32,970 nucleotides of DNA from Patescibacteria group bacterium (GTDB lineage: Bacteria; Patescibacteriota; Patescibacteriia; 2-12-FULL-60-25), in the NCBI GenBank assembly GCA_029210915.1, contig JARGGJ010000017.1, positions 1-32,970 of the forward strand, given 5' to 3'. Shown here piece by piece: positions 61 to 27,543 of the stretch. The translations under genes were made by a program, and so were the position numbers. The notes under the pieces are model-generated. The model worked only from the letters and a program-made list of their open reading frames with translations, did no database searches and had not been told where the DNA came from. Numbering within the stretch: the first letter of the stretch is position 1; each line of letters opens with the position of its first letter.

Positions 61-270
61 GTGTCTCATCAAGTGCATAATCCACCCTCCAAAACTCTTG
101 CCAAAAAACTCTATATATTGTATAACTATCACCACAATCGAACATCGAATCTCGAACTTCGAACTACGATATAAAATGAATATCGAGCTAAGCTCGATCC
201 CAAAATTGGTGATTGTTCTATTGGTTATTGCCACCCGTCATTAATATAAATATATATAATTATGGGTGGT
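61..270. other. Gene-free AT-rich segment before tRNA-His
   Basis: I see no convincing gene here. Short open frames have no ribosome binding site and no recognisable product. The segment holds a run of short direct repeats around 138-170 (CGAACATCGAATCTCGAACTT and variants), resembling the TTCG-rich repeats near 25930-25970. The stretch just before the tRNA is almost pure A/T (240-262) and could hold its promoter, but no clear -35/-10 pair stands out. Confidence 0.5.
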
Positions 271-295
271 CCACCATAGCCTTCGGCGAAGGTGG
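271..295. repeat. Small hairpin repeat, GAAGC/GCGAAG family, copy 1
   Basis: CCACC (271-275) pairs with GGTGG (291-295), and CCTTCG pairs with CGAAGG inside. The plan (short GC arm, GCTT/GCGAAG-type centre, complementary arm) recurs at 431-475, 4258-4284 and 17094-17118, so it is likely a dispersed miniature palindrome. Confidence 0.5.
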
Positions 296-312
296 AGTTA
301 TTACAAGTTCAT

Positions 313-388
313 GGTGGCCATGGTGTAATGGTTAACACAGAGGATTGTGGTTCCTCTGATACGGGTTCGATTCCCGTTGGCCACCCCA
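313..388 (+). tRNA. tRNA-His (GTG anticodon), CCA encoded
   Basis: A full cloverleaf can be drawn. The acceptor stem 314-320 (GTGGCCA) pairs with 378-384 (TGGCCAC). The anticodon stem 340-344 pairs with 352-356, and loop 345-351 carries anticodon GTG at 347-349. The T-arm has GGTTCGATTCC. The extra G-1 typical of histidine tRNA is at 313, opposite C73 at 385, and CCA is encoded at 386-388. The identity elements (GTG anticodon, G-1:C73) agree with histidine. Confidence 0.95.
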
Positions 389-475
389 CTCCCCGTCGCT
401 CGACTAGCGTCGAGCTATGGGGAGTGCCCCCCCCCCCGAAGCTCCGAAGCGAGATAGCGAAGGAGCGAAGGGGGG
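389..475. repeat. Two stacked dyads with an 11-nt poly-C tract
   Basis: Directly after the tRNA a dyad pairs CTCCCC (start near 389) with GGGGAG (419-424) and GCTCGAC with GTCGAGC inside. A second dyad pairs the C-run at 427-437 with GGGGGG at 470-475 and GCTCC with GGAGC inside, following the GAAGC/GCGAAG repeat plan. The homopolymer of 11 C is a likely slippage site. No protein reading is convincing. Confidence 0.55.
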
Positions 476-2463: not shown

Positions 2464-3627
2464 CTACACCATTCCCAACGCTAATGCCGTAAACATACCT
2501 ATTCCAAGTAATAAAATGATGATTCCCGCTATTAAATGCAAAGTCTTTAATCTCTTTTTCCTCCATTCCTCCGCTTGCTCCACAGACGTAAACCCCCAAT
2601 AAATAAACGCCGTAATAATAAGCATCGGCAAAACAAAGATAAAGTTATAAAGCAACAAATATACAAATGCCAAATTACGCGTAGTCGTTTTTGACAATAA
2701 TCCTAGAATGACGATATATGGGCCGGATGTGCATGGCAGTAAAAATAAGCTCACAACAAAACCAATTAAAAATGCTCCGGGAACCGAGGTTACACCTTTT
2801 ATGATTGCTTGTAACTTTGGCCTCCAACTCATCGGCACTTCCATCACAAACCATTTGCCATACCAAAGGTAATCTTTAAGATTAAATAATCCGAGTATAA
2901 TCGCTAAAAACGCAACAACAATATAGATAACATGAGTCGCACCCGATACTTGTATTGCCGAATATAAACCGATCCCCATCATCAAATATGAAAGATAAAT
3001 TGATAAAGTAAACGCCAACCCCGCAAATAATGCTTTTCTACGATTTTTCCCGGCCAAAACTGTGGTCAATAAAATAATTAAAACCGCAAAAGCACAAGGA
3101 TTGATTGCATCAACAGCCGCAGCGGATAAAATTGCGGGTATGGTAATTTTTTGCATCAACACTGCTTTTTGCGACACAGGCGCCGGGTCGCTTTCTCCCA
3201 CTATATGCAGCACCTCTTGTAAATCCGGATCTTCAACTTTCAACTTACTCTCCGGCGAACCGCACCCCGATTCCAAACATCTAACGACTTCGTTCTCTAA
3301 AGATGTTCCAATCGAATTACTAAATCCAACAATAACTTTATCATCTATAAACGATGTTGGAACTCCCTCAATCTGCTTACCGTACGCGCTCGACAATTCC
3401 TCGAACAAATCCAAATTCTCTGTATTAAAATATGTTTCGTACTTTTTAACAATCAACTCCGGATATTTCGCTTCCAAGCCCTCTAAAAATCCTTCCATTG
3501 CCCCGCAATGCGGGCATCCCTGCCCATAAAAAAAGTAAAGCTCTGTTGGCGCTTTATCCTCTGCATTAGTAACCGATGTAAATAAAAAAGTAAAAAATAT
3601 TACTATCAAAAATATTAAATATCTCAT
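2464..3627 (-). CDS. Thioredoxin-like / CcdA (DsbD-like) membrane fusion protein
   Basis: A 387-aa membrane redox protein. Residues 1-22 form a signal peptide or anchor. Residues ~27-120 form a thioredoxin-like domain with active site CPHC (Cys38, Cys41) and a cis-proline (GVP, Pro90). Residues ~160-387 are a CcdA/DsbD-type transmembrane domain of about six helices with the paired membrane cysteines in INPC (Cys178) and LPC (Cys299). In this family the membrane domain passes electrons from cytoplasmic thioredoxin to extracytoplasmic thiols; here the acceptor domain is fused at the N-terminus. There are extra Cys residues at 117 and 122 in the linker. It is followed after 2 bp upstream by the DUF134 gene on the same strand, so they are probably co-transcribed. 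Confidence 0.9.
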   Translation of the reverse strand: MRYLIFLIVIFFTFLFTSVTNAEDKAPTELYFFYGQGCPHCGAMEGFLEGLEAKYPELIVKKYETYFNTENLDLFEELSSAYGKQIEGVPTSFIDDKVIVGFSNSIGTSLENEVVRCLESGCGSPESKLKVEDPDLQEVLHIVGESDPAPVSQKAVLMQKITIPAILSAAAVDAINPCAFAVLIILLTTVLAGKNRRKALFAGLAFTLSIYLSYLMMGIGLYSAIQVSGATHVIYIVVAFLAIILGLFNLKDYLWYGKWFVMEVPMSWRPKLQAIIKGVTSVPGAFLIGFVVSLFLLPCTSGPYIVILGLLSKTTTRNLAFVYLLLYNFIFVLPMLIITAFIYWGFTSVEQAEEWRKKRLKTLHLIAGIIILLLGIGMFTALALGMV

Positions 3628-6219: not shown

Positions 6220-8019
6220 AATAATAAGTCTCGCCAATCTCAACTCATCATAACCAAAATCATCCCCCAGTTTTTCCTTTACCGGGCTGAGTAAATAACC
6301 ACCTGAAGTTTTAAAAGCTTCTACAATCGCTATAAGCCTGTCTTCATTAAAGGTTAAATGCGAAGCATCCACGTTTACACCGCTATCCAATGCTTTTTCC
6401 AAATGTTCCAAAACACTTAACGGTTTTAAACCTCTTAAATTGGCAACTTCATCTAACGATTTTTTCTTATTAAACAAATCCACGCTCATCATCACGGTCG
6501 AACTAACAGCCGTCTTAAAAATCGTTCGCGATTCCACAAACTGGGGCATATTTTCCTGCAGATCCTTATCTTCGCAATAAGCTTTGATATAGGTCAAAAA
6601 CTCTTCGCCATACTGTGCCAACTTTTCTTTTCCCACACCAAATATCTGCCCCATACTCTCCTCGCTTTGCGGATAATACAGCGCCATCTGTTGCAAGCTC
6701 TTATCGCCAAAAATAACATACGGCGGAACTCCCCTGCCTTCTGCAATCTCTCTGCGCAATCCTCTCAAAATCTCGAAAAGCTCTTCATCAAAACTTTCAA
6801 CTTCCGCACCTGCCGAAAAAGTTTTCTCGGCAACAACCGGCACACAAACATCACAACCTCCGCAATTGTTTTTGCTATATTCTTCACCAAAATACTCTAA
6901 AAGATAACTTCTACGGCAATTCTTAAGCTCTCCATACTCCACAACATCTTGTAATTGTTTTCTAGCCCTGGTTTGCTCAAGCGCGCTATCCATCATACGA
7001 ATAAAATATTCGTGCTTAAACATGTCTCCTTTAGAAAAAAACAAAATGCACTTACTGGGCAAGCCATCTCTCCCGGCACGCCCGGTTTCCTGATAATATC
7101 CTTCAACCGATTTTGGCATATCCACGTGCGCCACAAGCCTTACATCCGGCTTATCGATTCCCATCCCGAAAGCGATAGTGGCGCAAATCACACTTACTTT
7201 ATCTTTAATAAAAGCTTCTTGAACTCTGGATCGCCTATCCGCCTCCATACCCGCATGATAAAACGCGGCATTAATCCCATTAGCCTTTAAATCTGCTGCC
7301 ATCTTCTCTGTTCGCTTACGTGATAAACAATAAATAATAGCCGATTGATTCGGATCATTTTGTAAAAATCTAACAAGCTTTTGCAAAACCTGTTTTTTTG
7401 GCATTACCCTGTAACTCAAATTTGGCCTGTCAAAACTGGATTGAAAAACTTTTGCATCCCGCAATTTTAATTGATCCAAAATATCTTCCTTTACCCGCTT
7501 ATTTGCCGTCGCAGTTAATGCCAATACCGGCGCGCACGGAAAAAGCTCGCGCACAGCCCTCAAATTGCGGTAATCCGGCCTAAAATCATGCCCCCACTCA
7601 CTTATACAGTGCGCCTCATCCACCGCAAACAAGCTCACTTTTAAGCTCACTAAAAACTCCTGTACCCTTGGAATCGCCAACCTCTCGGGTGCCAAATACA
7701 ACAGCTTAATCTCCCCGCTCTGCGCCGCACGCTCAACTTTGGCAATCTCCGCATAATCCAAACTACTATTGATGTATGCCGCCGGTATCCCGTTCGCCCT
7801 AAGCGCATCTACCTGATCTTTCATGAGTGCAATAAGCGGTGAAACCACAATCGTAATCCCCGCCATCTCCAAAGCCGGCAACTGATAGCAAAGCGATTTC
7901 CCCCCGCCCGTAGGCATCAAAACCAAACCCTCACGCCCCGACATAACATGATCGATCACTTCTTTCTGAAGTGGCTTGAACTCGTCGTAGCCGAAGTACT
8001 TTTTCAACTTATCTAACAT
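6193..8019 (-). CDS. recQ: ATP-dependent DNA helicase RecQ
   Basis: A 608-aa superfamily 2 helicase that unwinds DNA 3'-5' in recombination and repair. Visible motifs: Walker A MPTGGGKS (35-42), DEAH box (134-137) with the RecQ-specific aromatic-rich loop after it (ISEWGHDFRPDY), motif VI QETGRAGRDG (310-319) and a zinc site of four cysteines (368, 386, 389, 392). An HRDC domain spans ~408-485 and a helix-turn-helix HTH_40-like domain ~505-595. The winged-helix RQC domain normally between zinc site and HRDC is missing: only ~15 residues separate them. The last seven codons (SQITNDK) are read from a dispersed AT-rich repeat. No Shine-Dalgarno site is seen before the ATG. Confidence 0.95.
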   Translation of the reverse strand: MLDKLKKYFGYDEFKPLQKEVIDHVMSGREGLVLMPTGGGKSLCYQLPALEMAGITIVVSPLIALMKDQVDALRANGIPAAYINSSLDYAEIAKVERAAQSGEIKLLYLAPERLAIPRVQEFLVSLKVSLFAVDEAHCISEWGHDFRPDYRNLRAVRELFPCAPVLALTATANKRVKEDILDQLKLRDAKVFQSSFDRPNLSYRVMPKKQVLQKLVRFLQNDPNQSAIIYCLSRKRTEKMAADLKANGINAAFYHAGMEADRRSRVQEAFIKDKVSVICATIAFGMGIDKPDVRLVAHVDMPKSVEGYYQETGRAGRDGLPSKCILFFSKGDMFKHEYFIRMMDSALEQTRARKQLQDVVEYGELKNCRRSYLLEYFGEEYSKNNCGGCDVCVPVVAEKTFSAGAEVESFDEELFEILRGLRREIAEGRGVPPYVIFGDKSLQQMALYYPQSEESMGQIFGVGKEKLAQYGEEFLTYIKAYCEDKDLQENMPQFVESRTIFKTAVSSTVMMSVDLFNKKKSLDEVANLRGLKPLSVLEHLEKALDSGVNVDASHLTFNEDRLIAIVEAFKTSGGYLLSPVKEKLGDDFGYDELRLARLIIKSQITNDK

Positions 8020-8030
8020 AATTATATTTA

Positions 8031-8114
8031 ATTAATAAATAACAAATAATAAATAACAAAGCGAGCGGATCTTATTTAAATAACAAATTATGAATAATAA
8101 ATAACAAAGCGAGT
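8031..8114 (-). repeat. Two inverted copies of the CCGCTCGC-TTATT repeat
   Basis: Copy one is 8031-8070 (AATAAATAACAAAGCGAGCGG) and copy two 8078-8114 (ending AAGCGAGTAG). Both are in the opposite orientation to the copies at 8571-8619 and 8711-8753, so together they frame the four-helix-bundle gene at 8156-8539. Confidence 0.7.
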
Positions 8115-8155
8115 AGATGGGATTATATAATATTTAATATCAACATATTGCTTTA

Positions 8156-8539
8156 TTATTTGTTATTTGTGATTTGTAATTTATTTGAGTCATTAGTTTT
8201 ACATGTTTTTAACGTTTTTGTAAGTATCTTAACAATTTCAACACAATCTTCTCTTAATAATTCAGCTTCTTCCAAAGATAACAGTTCCGAATCTCTTATC
8301 AACCTTATCCAATAATCAGTTTCTCTGGTCTCTTTCAAGGCAATGTGAACTTTATGTATAAAATCCGCTCTTGATTGCGCACCGGCAGCCTCTTCCAAAT
8401 TGGCACCGATCGAGGTTCCACTCCTTAACATCTGTTTCGACAATACAAACTCTCTTTTTTTATCAATTAAATAGTAATTAATCTTAACAACTTTCAAAGC
8501 AAAAGCATAGCTCTTCTCCACCGCAATATTTTCCTTCAT
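8156..8539 (-). CDS. Four-helix-bundle protein (S23/IVP-like), copy A
   Basis: A 127-aa protein of the 23S rRNA intervening-sequence (IVP)/TIGR02436 four-helix-bundle family. The hallmark is the second helix: LSKQMLRSGTSIGANLEEAAGAQSRADF, followed by HKVHIALKETRETDYWIRLI. Family members form small oligomers; relatives occur in 23S rRNA intervening sequences and as the Avd accessory protein of diversity-generating retroelements. The cellular role of standalone copies is not established. The C-terminal residues KLQITNNK come from the same AT-rich repeat that ends recQ. Inverted copies of that repeat stand on both sides of the gene. No Shine-Dalgarno site is evident. Confidence 0.88.
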   Translation of the reverse strand: MKENIAVEKSYAFALKVVKINYYLIDKKREFVLSKQMLRSGTSIGANLEEAAGAQSRADFIHKVHIALKETRETDYWIRLIRDSELLSLEEAELLREDCVEIVKILTKTLKTCKTNDSNKLQITNNK

Positions 8540-20244: not shown

Positions 20245-20776
20245 GCAAAGAATCAAGCGCGCAATGATAAGTAATTTTAAGCTGTTACAGCCACAATCTG
20301 TGGCTCTTCGACAGTTTCTTTTTTAGATTCGTAATTTTTATTTTTTGGGTGCTCGATAGTATAAATGAGAGCAGATAACATCTTTTGGATGATAGTATTT
20401 GCTTCCACTAATTTCTCCGCCTCATCCTTAAACTCAGAAAACAAATCCGCGATTAGCAGTAAATAAGTTTCGCACTCAAACGAACTGTTTCTTGCATAAT
20501 TCAAGTGCTTAACAAAATCCGCCTTAGCCCATTTACGCTGACCCTGCGCAATCTGCACCGGCATCGAAAATGCACCTCGGGTTAACTGTGATGTAAGTGC
20601 ATACCTCTCCTCCTGAGGCAATTGCCTGGTTAATGCATGCACTCCCTTGGCAAAATCGTACGATTGCTGCCAAACCACTAAATCCCGAAAACTCATTTTC
20701 TTAAAATCTTTTTTAGATGATGTTGTACTTGTTGTAGACATATATATAATAATAATTTGCGCGCTTGATTCTTTGC
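20245..20776. repeat. 20-bp perfect inverted repeat framing four-helix gene B
   Basis: GCAAAGAATCAAGCGCGCAA at 20245-20264 is the exact reverse complement of TTGCGCGCTTGATTCTTTGC at 20757-20776. Both lie just outside the four-helix-bundle gene (20277-20741): 12 bp after its stop and 15 bp before its start. Right of it stands a small palindrome GCAACGCGATGCGTTGC (20777-20793), then the repeat of element C begins. Confidence 0.85.
20277..20741 (-). CDS. Four-helix-bundle protein (S23/IVP-like), copy B
   Basis: A 154-aa four-helix-bundle protein. Core: SFRDLVVWQQSYDFAKGVHAL (helix 1), ERYALTSQLTRGAFSMPVQIAQGQRKWAKADF (helix 2), HLNYARNSSFECETYLLLIADL (helix 3), ANTIIQKMLSALIYTI (helix 4). The FRDLxVWQ start and L-x-R-A-x-x-S-x-x-x-x-I-A-x-G pattern are family marks. 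I take the ATG at 20741 (MSTTSTTSSKKD); an upstream GTG would have to read through the inverted repeat arm. The C-terminal tail is longer than the family's. No neighbouring rRNA or retroelement is present. The role of the protein is unknown. Confidence 0.85.
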   Translation of the reverse strand: MSTTSTTSSKKDFKKMSFRDLVVWQQSYDFAKGVHALTRQLPQEERYALTSQLTRGAFSMPVQIAQGQRKWAKADFVKHLNYARNSSFECETYLLLIADLFSEFKDEAEKLVEANTIIQKMLSALIYTIEHPKNKNYESKKETVEEPQIVAVTA

Positions 20777-20794
20777 GCAACGCGATGCGTTGCA

Positions 20795-21293
20795 CGTTTA
20801 TAACGTTTATAACGTTTATAACGAGTTAAGGTGGTTTGAATGGTGATTTAATGTTAGTAATTATTTTTGAAATCATCTTAATTATATGGTCCGCATCATC
20901 ATATAAAATTTCATATAGTGATTCATTGATATAATTTAATCGCAAAGCTAACAATAACATCGATCTAACTTCACTACATGAGGCCTTTGCAATAAATAGA
21001 AACCTAACAAAATCTTTGTTCGATCCTCTCTCGAATCCCTCTGAGATATTATTCGGTACGGAGACAGCAGCTCTTTCAATTTGATCTTTAAATGAATAAT
21101 CTTTACAGAAATAAAACGTATTATAAATATTTACGACTAAATCCGTTGATTTTTGCCAAGCCCTTATATCCTCCACTCTATTAAACTTCATACATTTTAC
21201 TTTTTACACTACATTAACTCGTTATAAACAATCTAATTTCTCATTTATATCAACATCATTAACTCGTTATGAACGTTATGAACGTTATGAACG
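20795..21293. repeat. 35-bp inverted repeat of 9-bp units framing four-helix gene C
   Basis: Left arm 20795-20829 is three CGTTTATAA units plus CGAGTTAA. Right arm 21259-21293, read in reverse complement, is three CGTTCATAA units plus CGAGTTAA. The arms match at 32 of 35 positions and the three differences fall at the same place in each unit. A shorter copy, TTAACTCGTTATAAAC, is at 21214-21229. The stop codon of the gene (20826-20828) lies in the left arm. Confidence 0.88.
20826..21191 (-). CDS. Four-helix-bundle protein (S23/IVP-like), copy C
   Basis: A 121-aa four-helix-bundle protein. Core: VEDIRAWQKSTDLVVNIYNTF, FKDQIERAAVSVPNNISEGFERGSNKDF (the highly conserved second helix with RAAVSVPNNISEGFERGS), RFLFIAKASCSEVRSMLLLALRL. 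It fits the IVP/TIGR02436 family closely and is clearly related to copy D (shared F-x-x-F-L-F-I-x-K-x-S-C-x-E-V-R-S-M), less so to A and B. Function unknown. It lies inside a matched pair of inverted repeats. Confidence 0.9.
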   Translation of the reverse strand: MKFNRVEDIRAWQKSTDLVVNIYNTFYFCKDYSFKDQIERAAVSVPNNISEGFERGSNKDFVRFLFIAKASCSEVRSMLLLALRLNYINESLYEILYDDADHIIKMISKIITNIKSPFKPP

Positions 21294-22852: not shown

Positions 22853-23244
22853 AGTTCATCAAGATAAAAGTTCATCAAGAGTTGCGAATGAATTTAATTA
22901 GTCCTGAAGTAATTTTTGATAATAGAATTGACTGATTATACACTTCGTCAAACTGCGCTTGGTTTATGAACCCTAAATCCATAGCAGCGTACATCATCGA
23001 TCTCACCTCACCGCAAGAGCCTTTTGAAATAAACAAAAATTGAGCAAACTCCTTATTACTTCTGCGCTCATAACCCTCTGCAATATTATTCATAGTAGAT
23101 AAAGTCGCCCTAAATAATTGACGTTTAAAATCAAAGTCTCTTAAATCACTAAAATATTTGAATATTAAACTCACTAATATTCGTGATTCTTGCCATGCTT
23201 TGATATCTTCAAATCTTTGAAACTGCATAACTCTTGATGAACTT
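22853..23244. repeat. Inverted repeat framing four-helix gene D
   Basis: AAGTTCATCAAGAGTT at 22868-22883 is the exact reverse complement of AACTCTTGATGAACTT at 23229-23244 (16 bp). A second, tandem copy of AGTTCATCAAGA lies at 22853-22864. The gene's stop codon (22875-22877) is within the left arm and its ATG abuts the right arm. Confidence 0.85.
22875..23228 (-). CDS. Four-helix-bundle protein (S23/IVP-like), copy D
   Basis: A 117-aa four-helix-bundle protein. Core: FEDIKAWQESRILVSLIFKYF, FKRQLFRATLSTMNNIAEGYERRSNKEF, QFLFISKGSCGEVRSMMYAAMDL. It is a close relative of copy C. It is located between comM (28 bp away) and lspA and may be read from the lspA side, but a minus-strand terminator at 23251-23273 stands between them. 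Function unknown. Confidence 0.9.
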   Translation of the reverse strand: MQFQRFEDIKAWQESRILVSLIFKYFSDLRDFDFKRQLFRATLSTMNNIAEGYERRSNKEFAQFLFISKGSCGEVRSMMYAAMDLGFINQAQFDEVYNQSILLSKITSGLIKFIRNS

Positions 23245-24654: not shown

Positions 24655-24984
24655 TCAGACAAGAAAGGTTTGGTACATCATCATACCAATGATAAAAAAA
24701 GTGCCGATACCTAAAAATTTCATAATCTCTTTCGTTGGTGCAAGCATCTGATATACAAAACCCACAAAAATAGTACTTATCACGATACAAACAAAGTACA
24801 CAACAAACCCATCAAACATTTGCATCGCCAGATGATTATAAAAAATAAAGTTAGCGATCGCTAAAAAACAACCCAAAACATCATCCCATCTAACTGTAAG
24901 ATATAAAGAACGCCTAGCCTTGGGCCGCACACTATGCGACCAAGTCATCCTGCCCGGAAGCAACGACGTACGATCTTCCTGCAT
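24655..24984 (-). CDS. Small membrane protein, unknown function
   Basis: A 109-aa protein with a basic cytoplasmic N-terminus (RMTWSHSVRPKARRS) and three hydrophobic helices (LGCFLAIANFIFYNHLA, FVVYFVCIVISTIFVGFVYQML, FLGIGTFFIIGMMMYQTFLV). The start at 24984 is set by a good Shine-Dalgarno AAGGAGGG six bases before it. I do not recognise the family. It has its own terminator. Confidence 0.75.
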   Translation of the reverse strand: MQEDRTSLLPGRMTWSHSVRPKARRSLYLTVRWDDVLGCFLAIANFIFYNHLAMQMFDGFVVYFVCIVISTIFVGFVYQMLAPTKEIMKFLGIGTFFIIGMMMYQTFLV

Positions 24985-25034
24985 CTTTCCCTCCTTATAA
25001 CTTAAGTTAATATGATTAATCATTTTGGTCAAAC

Positions 25035-25712: not shown

Positions 25713-25816
25713 TTATAAAGTTGAAAGTTTTTAAAGTTTTTAAAGTCGATCCACCTAACAACAACTTTACAAACTTTACAAACTTTACAAACTTTATGAA
25801 CTTTATGAACTTTATT
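25713..25816. repeat. Opposed arrays of 9-bp repeats upstream of the acidic-protein gene
   Basis: Six tandem 9-mers run from 25763 to 25816: AACTTTACA three times, AACTTTATG twice, AACTTTATT once. To the left (25713-25747) related units stand in the opposite orientation (TTTAAAGTT/TTTAAAGTC). AACTTTATG differs at one base from AACGTTATG, the unit of the right arm of element C (21259-21293). AT-rich sequence follows to 25840. Confidence 0.8.
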
Positions 25817-25984
25817 ATTTATAATTTATAATTTGTTACGAAGTAACGGTTGACCCTACCATCAATCTACCTTTTTGTCAAGAGTAGCTGGACAGATTCA
25901 TTTGAATTTTTATGAAGTTTTAGTGAAAAATCGTAGTTCGTGGTTCGAAATTCGTTGTTCGATTGCTAATTTGTAGTACGGGGC

Positions 25985-26013
25985 TTGACAAAACTTTAGA
26001 ATCATGATAGGTT
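25985..26013 (+). promoter_or_regulatory. Probable promoter of the structured RNA
   Basis: A perfect -35 TTGACA (25985-25990), spacer 17, then TAGGTT (26008-26013) as a weak -10. Transcription would start near 26020, at the first hairpin. Confidence 0.5.
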
Positions 26014-26015
26014 AA

Positions 26016-27178
26016 TACGTCGAGTTGAAAAACTCACGAACCTTAAAAAAAAGTACAGTACCGCACGCTACCAATTCATGTTTTATGTTACATGCTACAT
26101 GGAAAGGTTACGCGCGGTGCAGGCCTTTTCGCAGAGGCCAGAGTACAATCGACATTCCCACACCAAACGATGCGTTTGTAACGCCCCGGGGAATGATGGC
26201 CGGAATCGTCCGGTAAGGTAGAAGTTGCGCAGTAACGATGTGCGGGGTGTTAACTTTTTCAAGGAGGTGACCCCAAAACAACCGATACAGCAACTTCTAC
26301 CACTGCGACACCTAGCTCGAGACAATTCTGTCTCGAGCTTCCACACAAACTATCGAATCTCTCGATAGTTTGTGTGGGGTACTAACTCAACATCGACCCA
26401 ATTATTTTAAGTGTCACTTGAGATAATCGAGTCGTGCAGGTAGCACAGCGCGTCTGCCATAGCACCATGCAGAGAGCCATCCGGCCCGTACTGTCCATGG
26501 TTTCCTTATGAACCAAAAATAAGGATGGTCGATCCCACCGCAATATATCGACAAGTCGCGTCTCAAGGTAAGTACGGCATGACCCGTTCGCTATCTTGTA
26601 AACGCACATCGCGCACACTCCGACCCAAGGAAATTCTCCCTTGGGTTTCCACACAACATATCGAGTCTCTCGATATGTTGTGCGGGGTACAGGCCGTTGC
26701 AGCGGCCAGAGTACAACAGCGCAAGATCCTTGCGCTCGGACCTAACATTCCTGAAGTTCGTTGTTAACACCCGCTTTATGCGGCTAAAAAACAATAGCTT
26801 TCCAGCGGATGGAACGGTCATGGCAAGGTCTAGCTCTCCGTGGAGCAAAACCTCGCAAGCTTGGCTCGTAAAACACACTAAGCCAAGCACTGCACGCAAC
26901 CACCGTGTCTTTGCAACTTGCAATTGCATGTGGGTTGGGTAGGCGGAGCAGCCGCCATTACCAGGTATGTGACGACGTCTAGGTGGCCATAGATGCGGTA
27001 CTGGTTACCAATTCTAAATCCTGGGCGTTGGCATGTATCAAAAGCTTGAATCGTTCTCACCTTTGGCCGGGGCGCATCAGTGAAATGCGTAAAACGATTC
27101 CATTCAGCCTCTGTAGGTAACCCGCCTACATGCACTGCAACCCTAACTCATTACGCTCGGGACCCTTGTCTCGAGCTT
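26016..27178 (+). ncRNA. Candidate large structured non-coding RNA (~1.16 kb), family unknown
   Basis: This segment is visibly more GC-rich than its surroundings and is packed with perfect stems: GAGTT-GAAA-AACTC (26022-26035), CATTCCC/GGGAATG (26153-26159/26189-26195), an 11-bp stem 26218-26228/26290-26300, 26314-26339, 26341-26377, 26623-26646, 26649-26685, 26692-26707, 26719-26735, 26859-26866/26881-26888, 26942-26956, 27048-27055/27093-27100, 27113-27129 and 27155-27176. Two neighbouring hairpins occur twice, at 26314-26377 and 26623-26685; stem sequences differ but stay paired, while the loop AATTCT and the joiner TTCCACACAA are kept. GGCC-hairpin + CAGAGTACAA also recurs (26122-26149, 26692-26715). 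Short overlapping open frames on both strands carry no protein features. It does not show the conserved cores of RNase P RNA, tmRNA, SRP RNA or a group II intron domain V. The exact ends and direction are inferred from the promoter. Confidence 0.7.
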
Positions 27179-27276
27179 CTTCAATAGCTCACGACACTTA
27201 ATTATTACATTTACATGCTGCCTGATACATGTTACAAGTTGCATGTTAACGCTACATGATTTATTGAGGAGGAACG

Positions 27277-27543
27277 ATGTCAAAAAAATTCGCAGATTGT
27301 ATCGTTGATGTAATCCTTGAAGATGGTGTTGAGATAGAACGTGCTGCAAAAAGTGATGACGTCTATGAGCAAATCGAAGCTATCGAAAAACTCATAGATG
27401 CGCTGGAGGATTATCGGGAAGCTCTTTATGCAATAAGCGAAGGCAGGTGCAAAACCTGCGACGCCGATGACTGTCCGTTTCGCAACGATCAAGACGCCGG
27501 TGCTGTAGATTGCGAAACCCAAGAAAAAGTTTTATTAAACTAG
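27277..27543 (+). CDS. Small Cys-containing acidic protein, unknown
   Basis: An 88-aa protein with a strong ribosome site GGAGG (27268-27272) and a terminator, so it is very likely expressed. An N-terminal acidic helical half (VILEDGVEIERAAKSDDVYEQIEAIEKLIDALEDYREAL) is followed by a short Cys cluster RCKTCDADDCPFRND...VDC, which could bind zinc. I do not recognise a family. It is the first gene after the structured RNA and may share its transcript, as no clear terminator separates them. Confidence 0.75.
   Translation: MSKKFADCIVDVILEDGVEIERAAKSDDVYEQIEAIEKLIDALEDYREALYAISEGRCKTCDADDCPFRNDQDAGAVDCETQEKVLLN

Follow-up and report, generated by a model that had tools for sequence, protein, structure and literature searches.

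We report that the plus-strand region 26015-27180 of the window (the whole 32,970-nucleotide stretch of DNA that was analysed) probably encodes a large structured non-coding RNA, about 1.16 kb long, which is itself probably a stand-alone scaffold. The window corresponds to contig C8 in a genome of 1.46 Mb that is 98% complete, and its sole Rfam match is a tRNA-His at 314-388. The earlier note had placed an RNA of about this length here, with a start and an end that proved about right, and had described it as dense in stems; folding energy and a homologue in a second species both support this description. More specifically, the full-length region on the plus strand has an MFE z of -11.1 relative to shuffled sequence, falling to -5.5 once the copies of two repeated hairpins, H1 and H2, are taken out. 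At 200-nt resolution, z reaches -4.9 (26001), -10.0 (26201) and -8.3 (26601) against a background mean of -1.0 (sd 1.5, n=38), and is about -2 at 26401, 26801 and 27001; by this measure the insert (-2.4) and the 3' domain (-2.1) are only weakly special. The G+C content is about 0.50 in the RNA region versus 0.3-0.4 in its surroundings.

Among 96 genomes searched by blastn, one convincing relative was found in the same genus: Candidatus Uhrbacteria bacterium Bin_582 (G008, a MAG), contig WJLP01000080, which places the host of the window among the Patescibacteria (CPR). This homologue of about 780 nt (locus L033, reverse complement, about 7572-8400) is syntenic, since the same neighbours (traR, lspA, comM and a small membrane protein gene) are found in both genomes. 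Similarity begins at 25969, directly before a TTGACA, and stops at the terminal hairpin, the outer flanks being without alignment; the block 25969-26028 is 82% identical (E 5e-10) to the block directly upstream of the homologue. With domain 3 left out, the aligned blocks are 60-85% identical, compared with 73-78% at the DNA level for neighbouring genes. The parts of the RNA and its promoter-like block are as follows.

25985-26013 (+): promoter-like block, TTGACA, 17-nt spacer and TAGGTT (a weak -10, with TG one base before), conserved upstream of the homologue.
26018-26038 (+): 5' hairpin CGTCGAGTT...AACTCACG, with GAGUU/AACUC becoming GGGUU/AACCC in the relative; RNAalifold z -5.2.
26041-26112 (+): insertion with the genome-dispersed palindrome CATGTTACATGCTACATG, missing in the relative.
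26113-26307 (+): module 1, from CGCGGUG to CACUGCG, comprising the head hairpin, two more hairpins and the covarying long helix GGUAGAAGUUGC/GCAACUUCUACC.
26117-26146 (+): head hairpin copy 1, made of 4 bp, an A/AGA internal loop and a hairpin.
26261-26270 (+): AAGGAGGUGA hairpin loop, complementary to the 16S rRNA 3' tail and overlapping the longest conserved block, 26263-26283.
26314-26377 (+): first copy of H1 and H2, seen by internal repeat and covariation.
26378-26685 (+): extra module, missing in the relative, with head copy 2 (26434-26465), H1' (26623-26646) and H2' (26649-26685).
26686-26893 (+): module 2, with head copy 3 (26687-26714), a 22-bp irregular helix, UUAACACC-hairpin-AAAAAAC, the helix GCUUGGCU/AGCCAAGC and CACUGC.
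26894-27153 (+): domain 3, structured in each species (z -2.1 in the window, -2.6 in the relative).
27154-27178 (+): 3' terminal hairpin followed by the short T-rich stretch CTTCTTC, a possible transcript end.

The promoter-like block is missing from the list of a consensus scan because its -10 is poor. The terminal hairpin is conserved in the relative (22 of 26 aligned bases, z -7.4); the alignment of domain 3 between the two species, at 43% identity, is not reliable. Palindromic repeats of the CATGTTACATGCTACATG type, which are scattered through genomes of the genus and the class, lie at 26073-26101, within the RNA close to its 5' end, and at 27208-27240; query positions 98-122, the palindrome part, match many sites in related genomes.

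The earlier note had called for covariation in homologues, and this was found: across the two best-aligned blocks, 12 of 87 consensus pairs are altered on both sides without a single broken pair; the structure behind this count comes from the same two-sequence alignment. Module 1 contributes 48 of these pairs, 9 altered on both sides and none broken, which was equalled in 1 of 500 shuffles (slid controls, 0-1). For module 2 (39 pairs, 3 altered on both sides, 5 changed to G.U, none broken) the count was equalled in 62 of 500 shuffles and is weak by itself, as are the three compensated pairs among the eight of its last helix. RNAalifold energies are 5-15 sd below those of column-shuffled alignments in all segments tested. 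Because consensus structures predicted from the same pair of sequences are favoured by construction, and column-level covariation rests on that one pair (two species) plus internal copies, the internal copies of H1/H2 and of the head hairpin are the more independent evidence.

As the earlier note had observed, two hairpins occur twice, 308 bp apart, within a 59-nt repeat (26324-26382 and 26632-26690, 81% identical). The H1 stem AGCTCGAGAC/GTCTCGAGCT (26314-26339) is the counterpart of ACCCAAGG/CCTTGGGT (26623-26646), with the loop AATTCT and the flank TTCCACACAA identical in both window copies, and H2 CCACACAAACTATCGA (26341-26377) is the counterpart of CCACACAACATATCGA (26649-26685). Over three copies, two from the window and one from the relative, 6 of 26 pairs are altered on both sides with pairing kept, a count equalled in 3 of 500 shuffles (slid controls, 0-2). 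The proposal that the stems change in a compensatory way thus stands for these six pairs and fails for one pair per hairpin, which is lost (A.C) in the second window copy. The relative's H2 has four mismatches; with some pairs lost in one copy or another, the stems are kept as helices, not perfectly. The repeat itself is real, but what had been described as a duplication of two hairpins turns out to be an entire additional module, missing from the relative. This follows from the head hairpin, which occurs three times in the window (26117-26146, 26434-26465, 26687-26714) and twice in the relative, where a single H1H2 is soon followed by the next head. Over these five copies in two species, 100% of the cells are paired and 3 of 9 pairs are altered on both sides (equalled in 10 of 500 shuffles), copy 2 pairing with different stem letters. 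Modules have been gained or lost: two plus the 3' domain in the relative, three plus the 3' domain in the window RNA.

Three features speak for the plus strand: the promoter-like block, changes to G.U on one side of a pair, and an excess of unpaired A over unpaired U on that strand. Five pairs of one long helix of module 2, in a structure predicted on the plus strand, change one-sidedly to G.U, which fits that strand. A strand-neutral count over all helices is a near tie, 14 G.U to 15 A.C, so the choice of strand depends chiefly on the promoter-like block and this one helix. The same balance of G.U and A.C departures speaks for hairpins that work at the DNA level, as a recombination, replication or packaging site or as the relic of a mobile element, and the dispersed palindrome inserted inside the region, together with the variability of the region upstream of traR in the genus, points the same way. 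We nevertheless regard this reading as very improbable: it has to contend with conserved unpaired blocks, long-range closing helices, the conserved promoter-like block, the G.U-rich helix of module 2, and a single copy per genome at the same position in both genomes.

That the region holds no credible protein, as the earlier note had it, is borne out by the comparison of the two species. No frame is preserved, several gaps (among them 1, 4 and 19) are not multiples of three, mismatches are spread evenly over codon positions, and peptide matches are short and scattered over many frames, whereas a neighbouring gene, taken as positive control, is 83% identical over 417 aa in one frame. A short ORF starting from a GTG inside GGAGGTG was rejected, its codons differing non-synonymously where the stem covaries. 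Spurious ORFs of up to 112 aa are all that would favour a protein-coding or pseudogene segment with incidental folding, a reading that we find barely credible in light of this comparison.

A search of Rfam, which the earlier note had suggested, gave no relevant match to either copy at gathering or permissive thresholds (E<=10 for the window copy, E<=5 for the relative); group I/II introns, RNase P, tmRNA, SRP and 6S had no match at E<=10 in the RNA region. Covariance models of both modules, run on genomes of the class (381), the phylum (380) and the family (40), sets that overlap and contain about 730 distinct Patescibacteria genomes, match convincingly only in the window genome and in the relative. 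Further model matches in G175, G093, G286, G421, G460 and G727 were taken as chance, three of the loci concerned (L045, L049, L050) looking coding and the remaining matches scoring only 14-15 bits. Also taken as chance were five matches, besides the relative, in an exact 18-mer scan of genome contigs, all without surrounding similarity, and pattern matches in viral contigs (64 stretches plus one; one repeat-rich contig had four matches). Phage and plasmid records gave no BLAST match to the RNA. Taken together, no third copy was found in the roughly 730 Patescibacteria genomes, in phages, in plasmids or in pattern scans of other collections. Where other members of the genus carry the traR locus, the genes upstream of it are different, and the RNA was not found there; as several of these genomes are 95-100% complete, its absence from them is probably real. 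In the open-access literature, with most subscription journals outside its scope, we found no report of a large RNA in Patescibacteria or Uhrbacteria.

The resemblance to OLE, ROOL and GOLLD noted earlier holds for size and style and does not extend to membership, no Rfam covariance model being matched. GOLLD is similar in size class (many exceed 800 nt), in its many domains and in having a variable part beside a conserved part; it has been reported to bind ribosomes in pull-downs (PMC12286853), and the Uhrbacteria RNA has a loop that complements the 16S tail. Unlike GOLLD, whose Rfam model covers the universally conserved 3' region, it has no Rfam match, lies beside neither tRNA genes nor recognisable phage genes, is found only in Uhrbacteria and has repeated head modules. 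ROOL is likewise large, ornate and without an obvious protein partner, but is a feature of phage and prophage genomes, where it often neighbours tRNA islands (PMC12286853); such a context is absent at the window, where a PHROGs scan of ten neighbouring proteins revealed no clear phage structural gene, viral and phage collections gave no match to the RNA, and the ROOL model in Rfam is not matched. The raiA motif RNA (ModT) is also a conserved structured bacterial ncRNA; it is conserved in >2,500 species from other phyla, which include Bacillota (PMC11706538), and differs in that the Uhrbacteria RNA has no Rfam match.

OLE, a large ornate RNA of cellular genomes, is comparable also in that a small membrane protein gene lies near the Uhrbacteria RNA (24655-25032, minus strand, in the window; 2792-3115, plus strand, in L033). 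OLE is about 600 nt long and found in Gram-positive extremophiles (PMC9723947), while the RNA described here is 0.8-1.2 kb and belongs to a reduced-genome CPR lineage. Since several proteins bind to OLE RNA, which is located at the membrane (PMC12286853, PMC12265935), the stand-alone RNA could, as a special case, belong to a membrane-associated RNA-protein particle with an OLE-like function and this small protein as partner. The protein is convincing only in the two RNA-bearing genomes among 57 relatives; because both it and the RNA lie in one clade-specific segment, however, this co-occurrence is nearly uninformative. In each genome its gene runs opposite to the RNA, with an unrelated gene between the two, no match to OLE exists in Rfam, and we give such a particle a small chance. 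The protein is 40% identical between the species and evolves faster than the neighbouring traR (83%).

Downstream of the RNA, a small ORF (27277-27543, plus strand, in the window; 154-438, minus strand, in L033) with a Shine-Dalgarno follows the terminal hairpin by 45-97 nt in both genomes. The RNA could accordingly be a giant structured 5' leader acting in cis on this ORF within one shared transcript, and the lack of a strong terminator between hairpin and ORF in either genome would allow it. We consider a leader unlikely: a length of 0.8-1.2 kb would be exceptional, a T-rich stretch follows the terminal hairpin in both species, and the two downstream proteins share only an EGxCxTCD motif (pairwise E 0.002), being otherwise unrelated, with no homologue of the window protein in relatives. 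A faint similarity links the 27277-27543 product to the C-terminal part of CueR, at an NCBIfam E of 0.0044 that falls well short of the cutoff.

Several other features of the window were observed. A nine-base tandem array AACTTTACA/AACTTTATG, in six copies (25763-25816), lies between the RNA and the upstream gene. At the contig end, 30643-32491 (minus strand) is probably an AbiL/RloAB-type defence pair, with an AAA ATPase matching AbiLi (PADLOC 1.4e-50) and then a 192-aa protein that is RloB-like by eye and without a family match. Four small proteins at scattered positions (8156-8539, 20277-20795, 20826-21191, 22875-23228) look by eye to be of the four-helix-bundle (23S intervening-sequence) type.

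Among the functional readings we rank the stand-alone non-coding RNA scaffold first; the clues to a possible function are the loop that complements the 16S tail and the co-occurring small membrane protein. Transcription would start from the TTGACA-type promoter directly upstream of 26015, proceed on the plus strand and end at the terminal hairpin (27178), and the RNA would fold as a series of multi-helix modules. Module 1 would be opened by the head hairpin and closed by the GCGGUG/CACUGC helix, with related motifs again in module 2. The folded RNA may then act in trans as a scaffold, alone or with protein. Via the 16S tail, the AAGGAGGUGA loop might anchor the RNA to the 30S subunit, a possibility we regard as doubtful: GGAGGTGACCCCAAAACAACC is identical in both species and the 16S tail GGATCACCTCCTTTCT was read from the same genome as the window RNA, but with two sequences known the complementarity could be coincidence. 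It is rather a long shot that this lineage-specific RNA of variable homologous modules forms a particle, perhaps multimeric, that is docked on the 30S and serves as a ribosome-associated factor.

The RNA is long and non-coding, with a covarying multi-domain structure conserved between species (two species), as in the general kind of large structured bacterial ncRNA, and its sequence is best read as a new ncRNA family of the large ornate type. To our knowledge, few classes of such RNAs have been named and their functions are still poorly understood. It would be striking for an organism with a small genome to retain a structured RNA of 1.2 kb. The gain or loss of a module between the two species shows a way in which RNAs of this kind can become larger, through internal duplication accompanied by compensated divergence.
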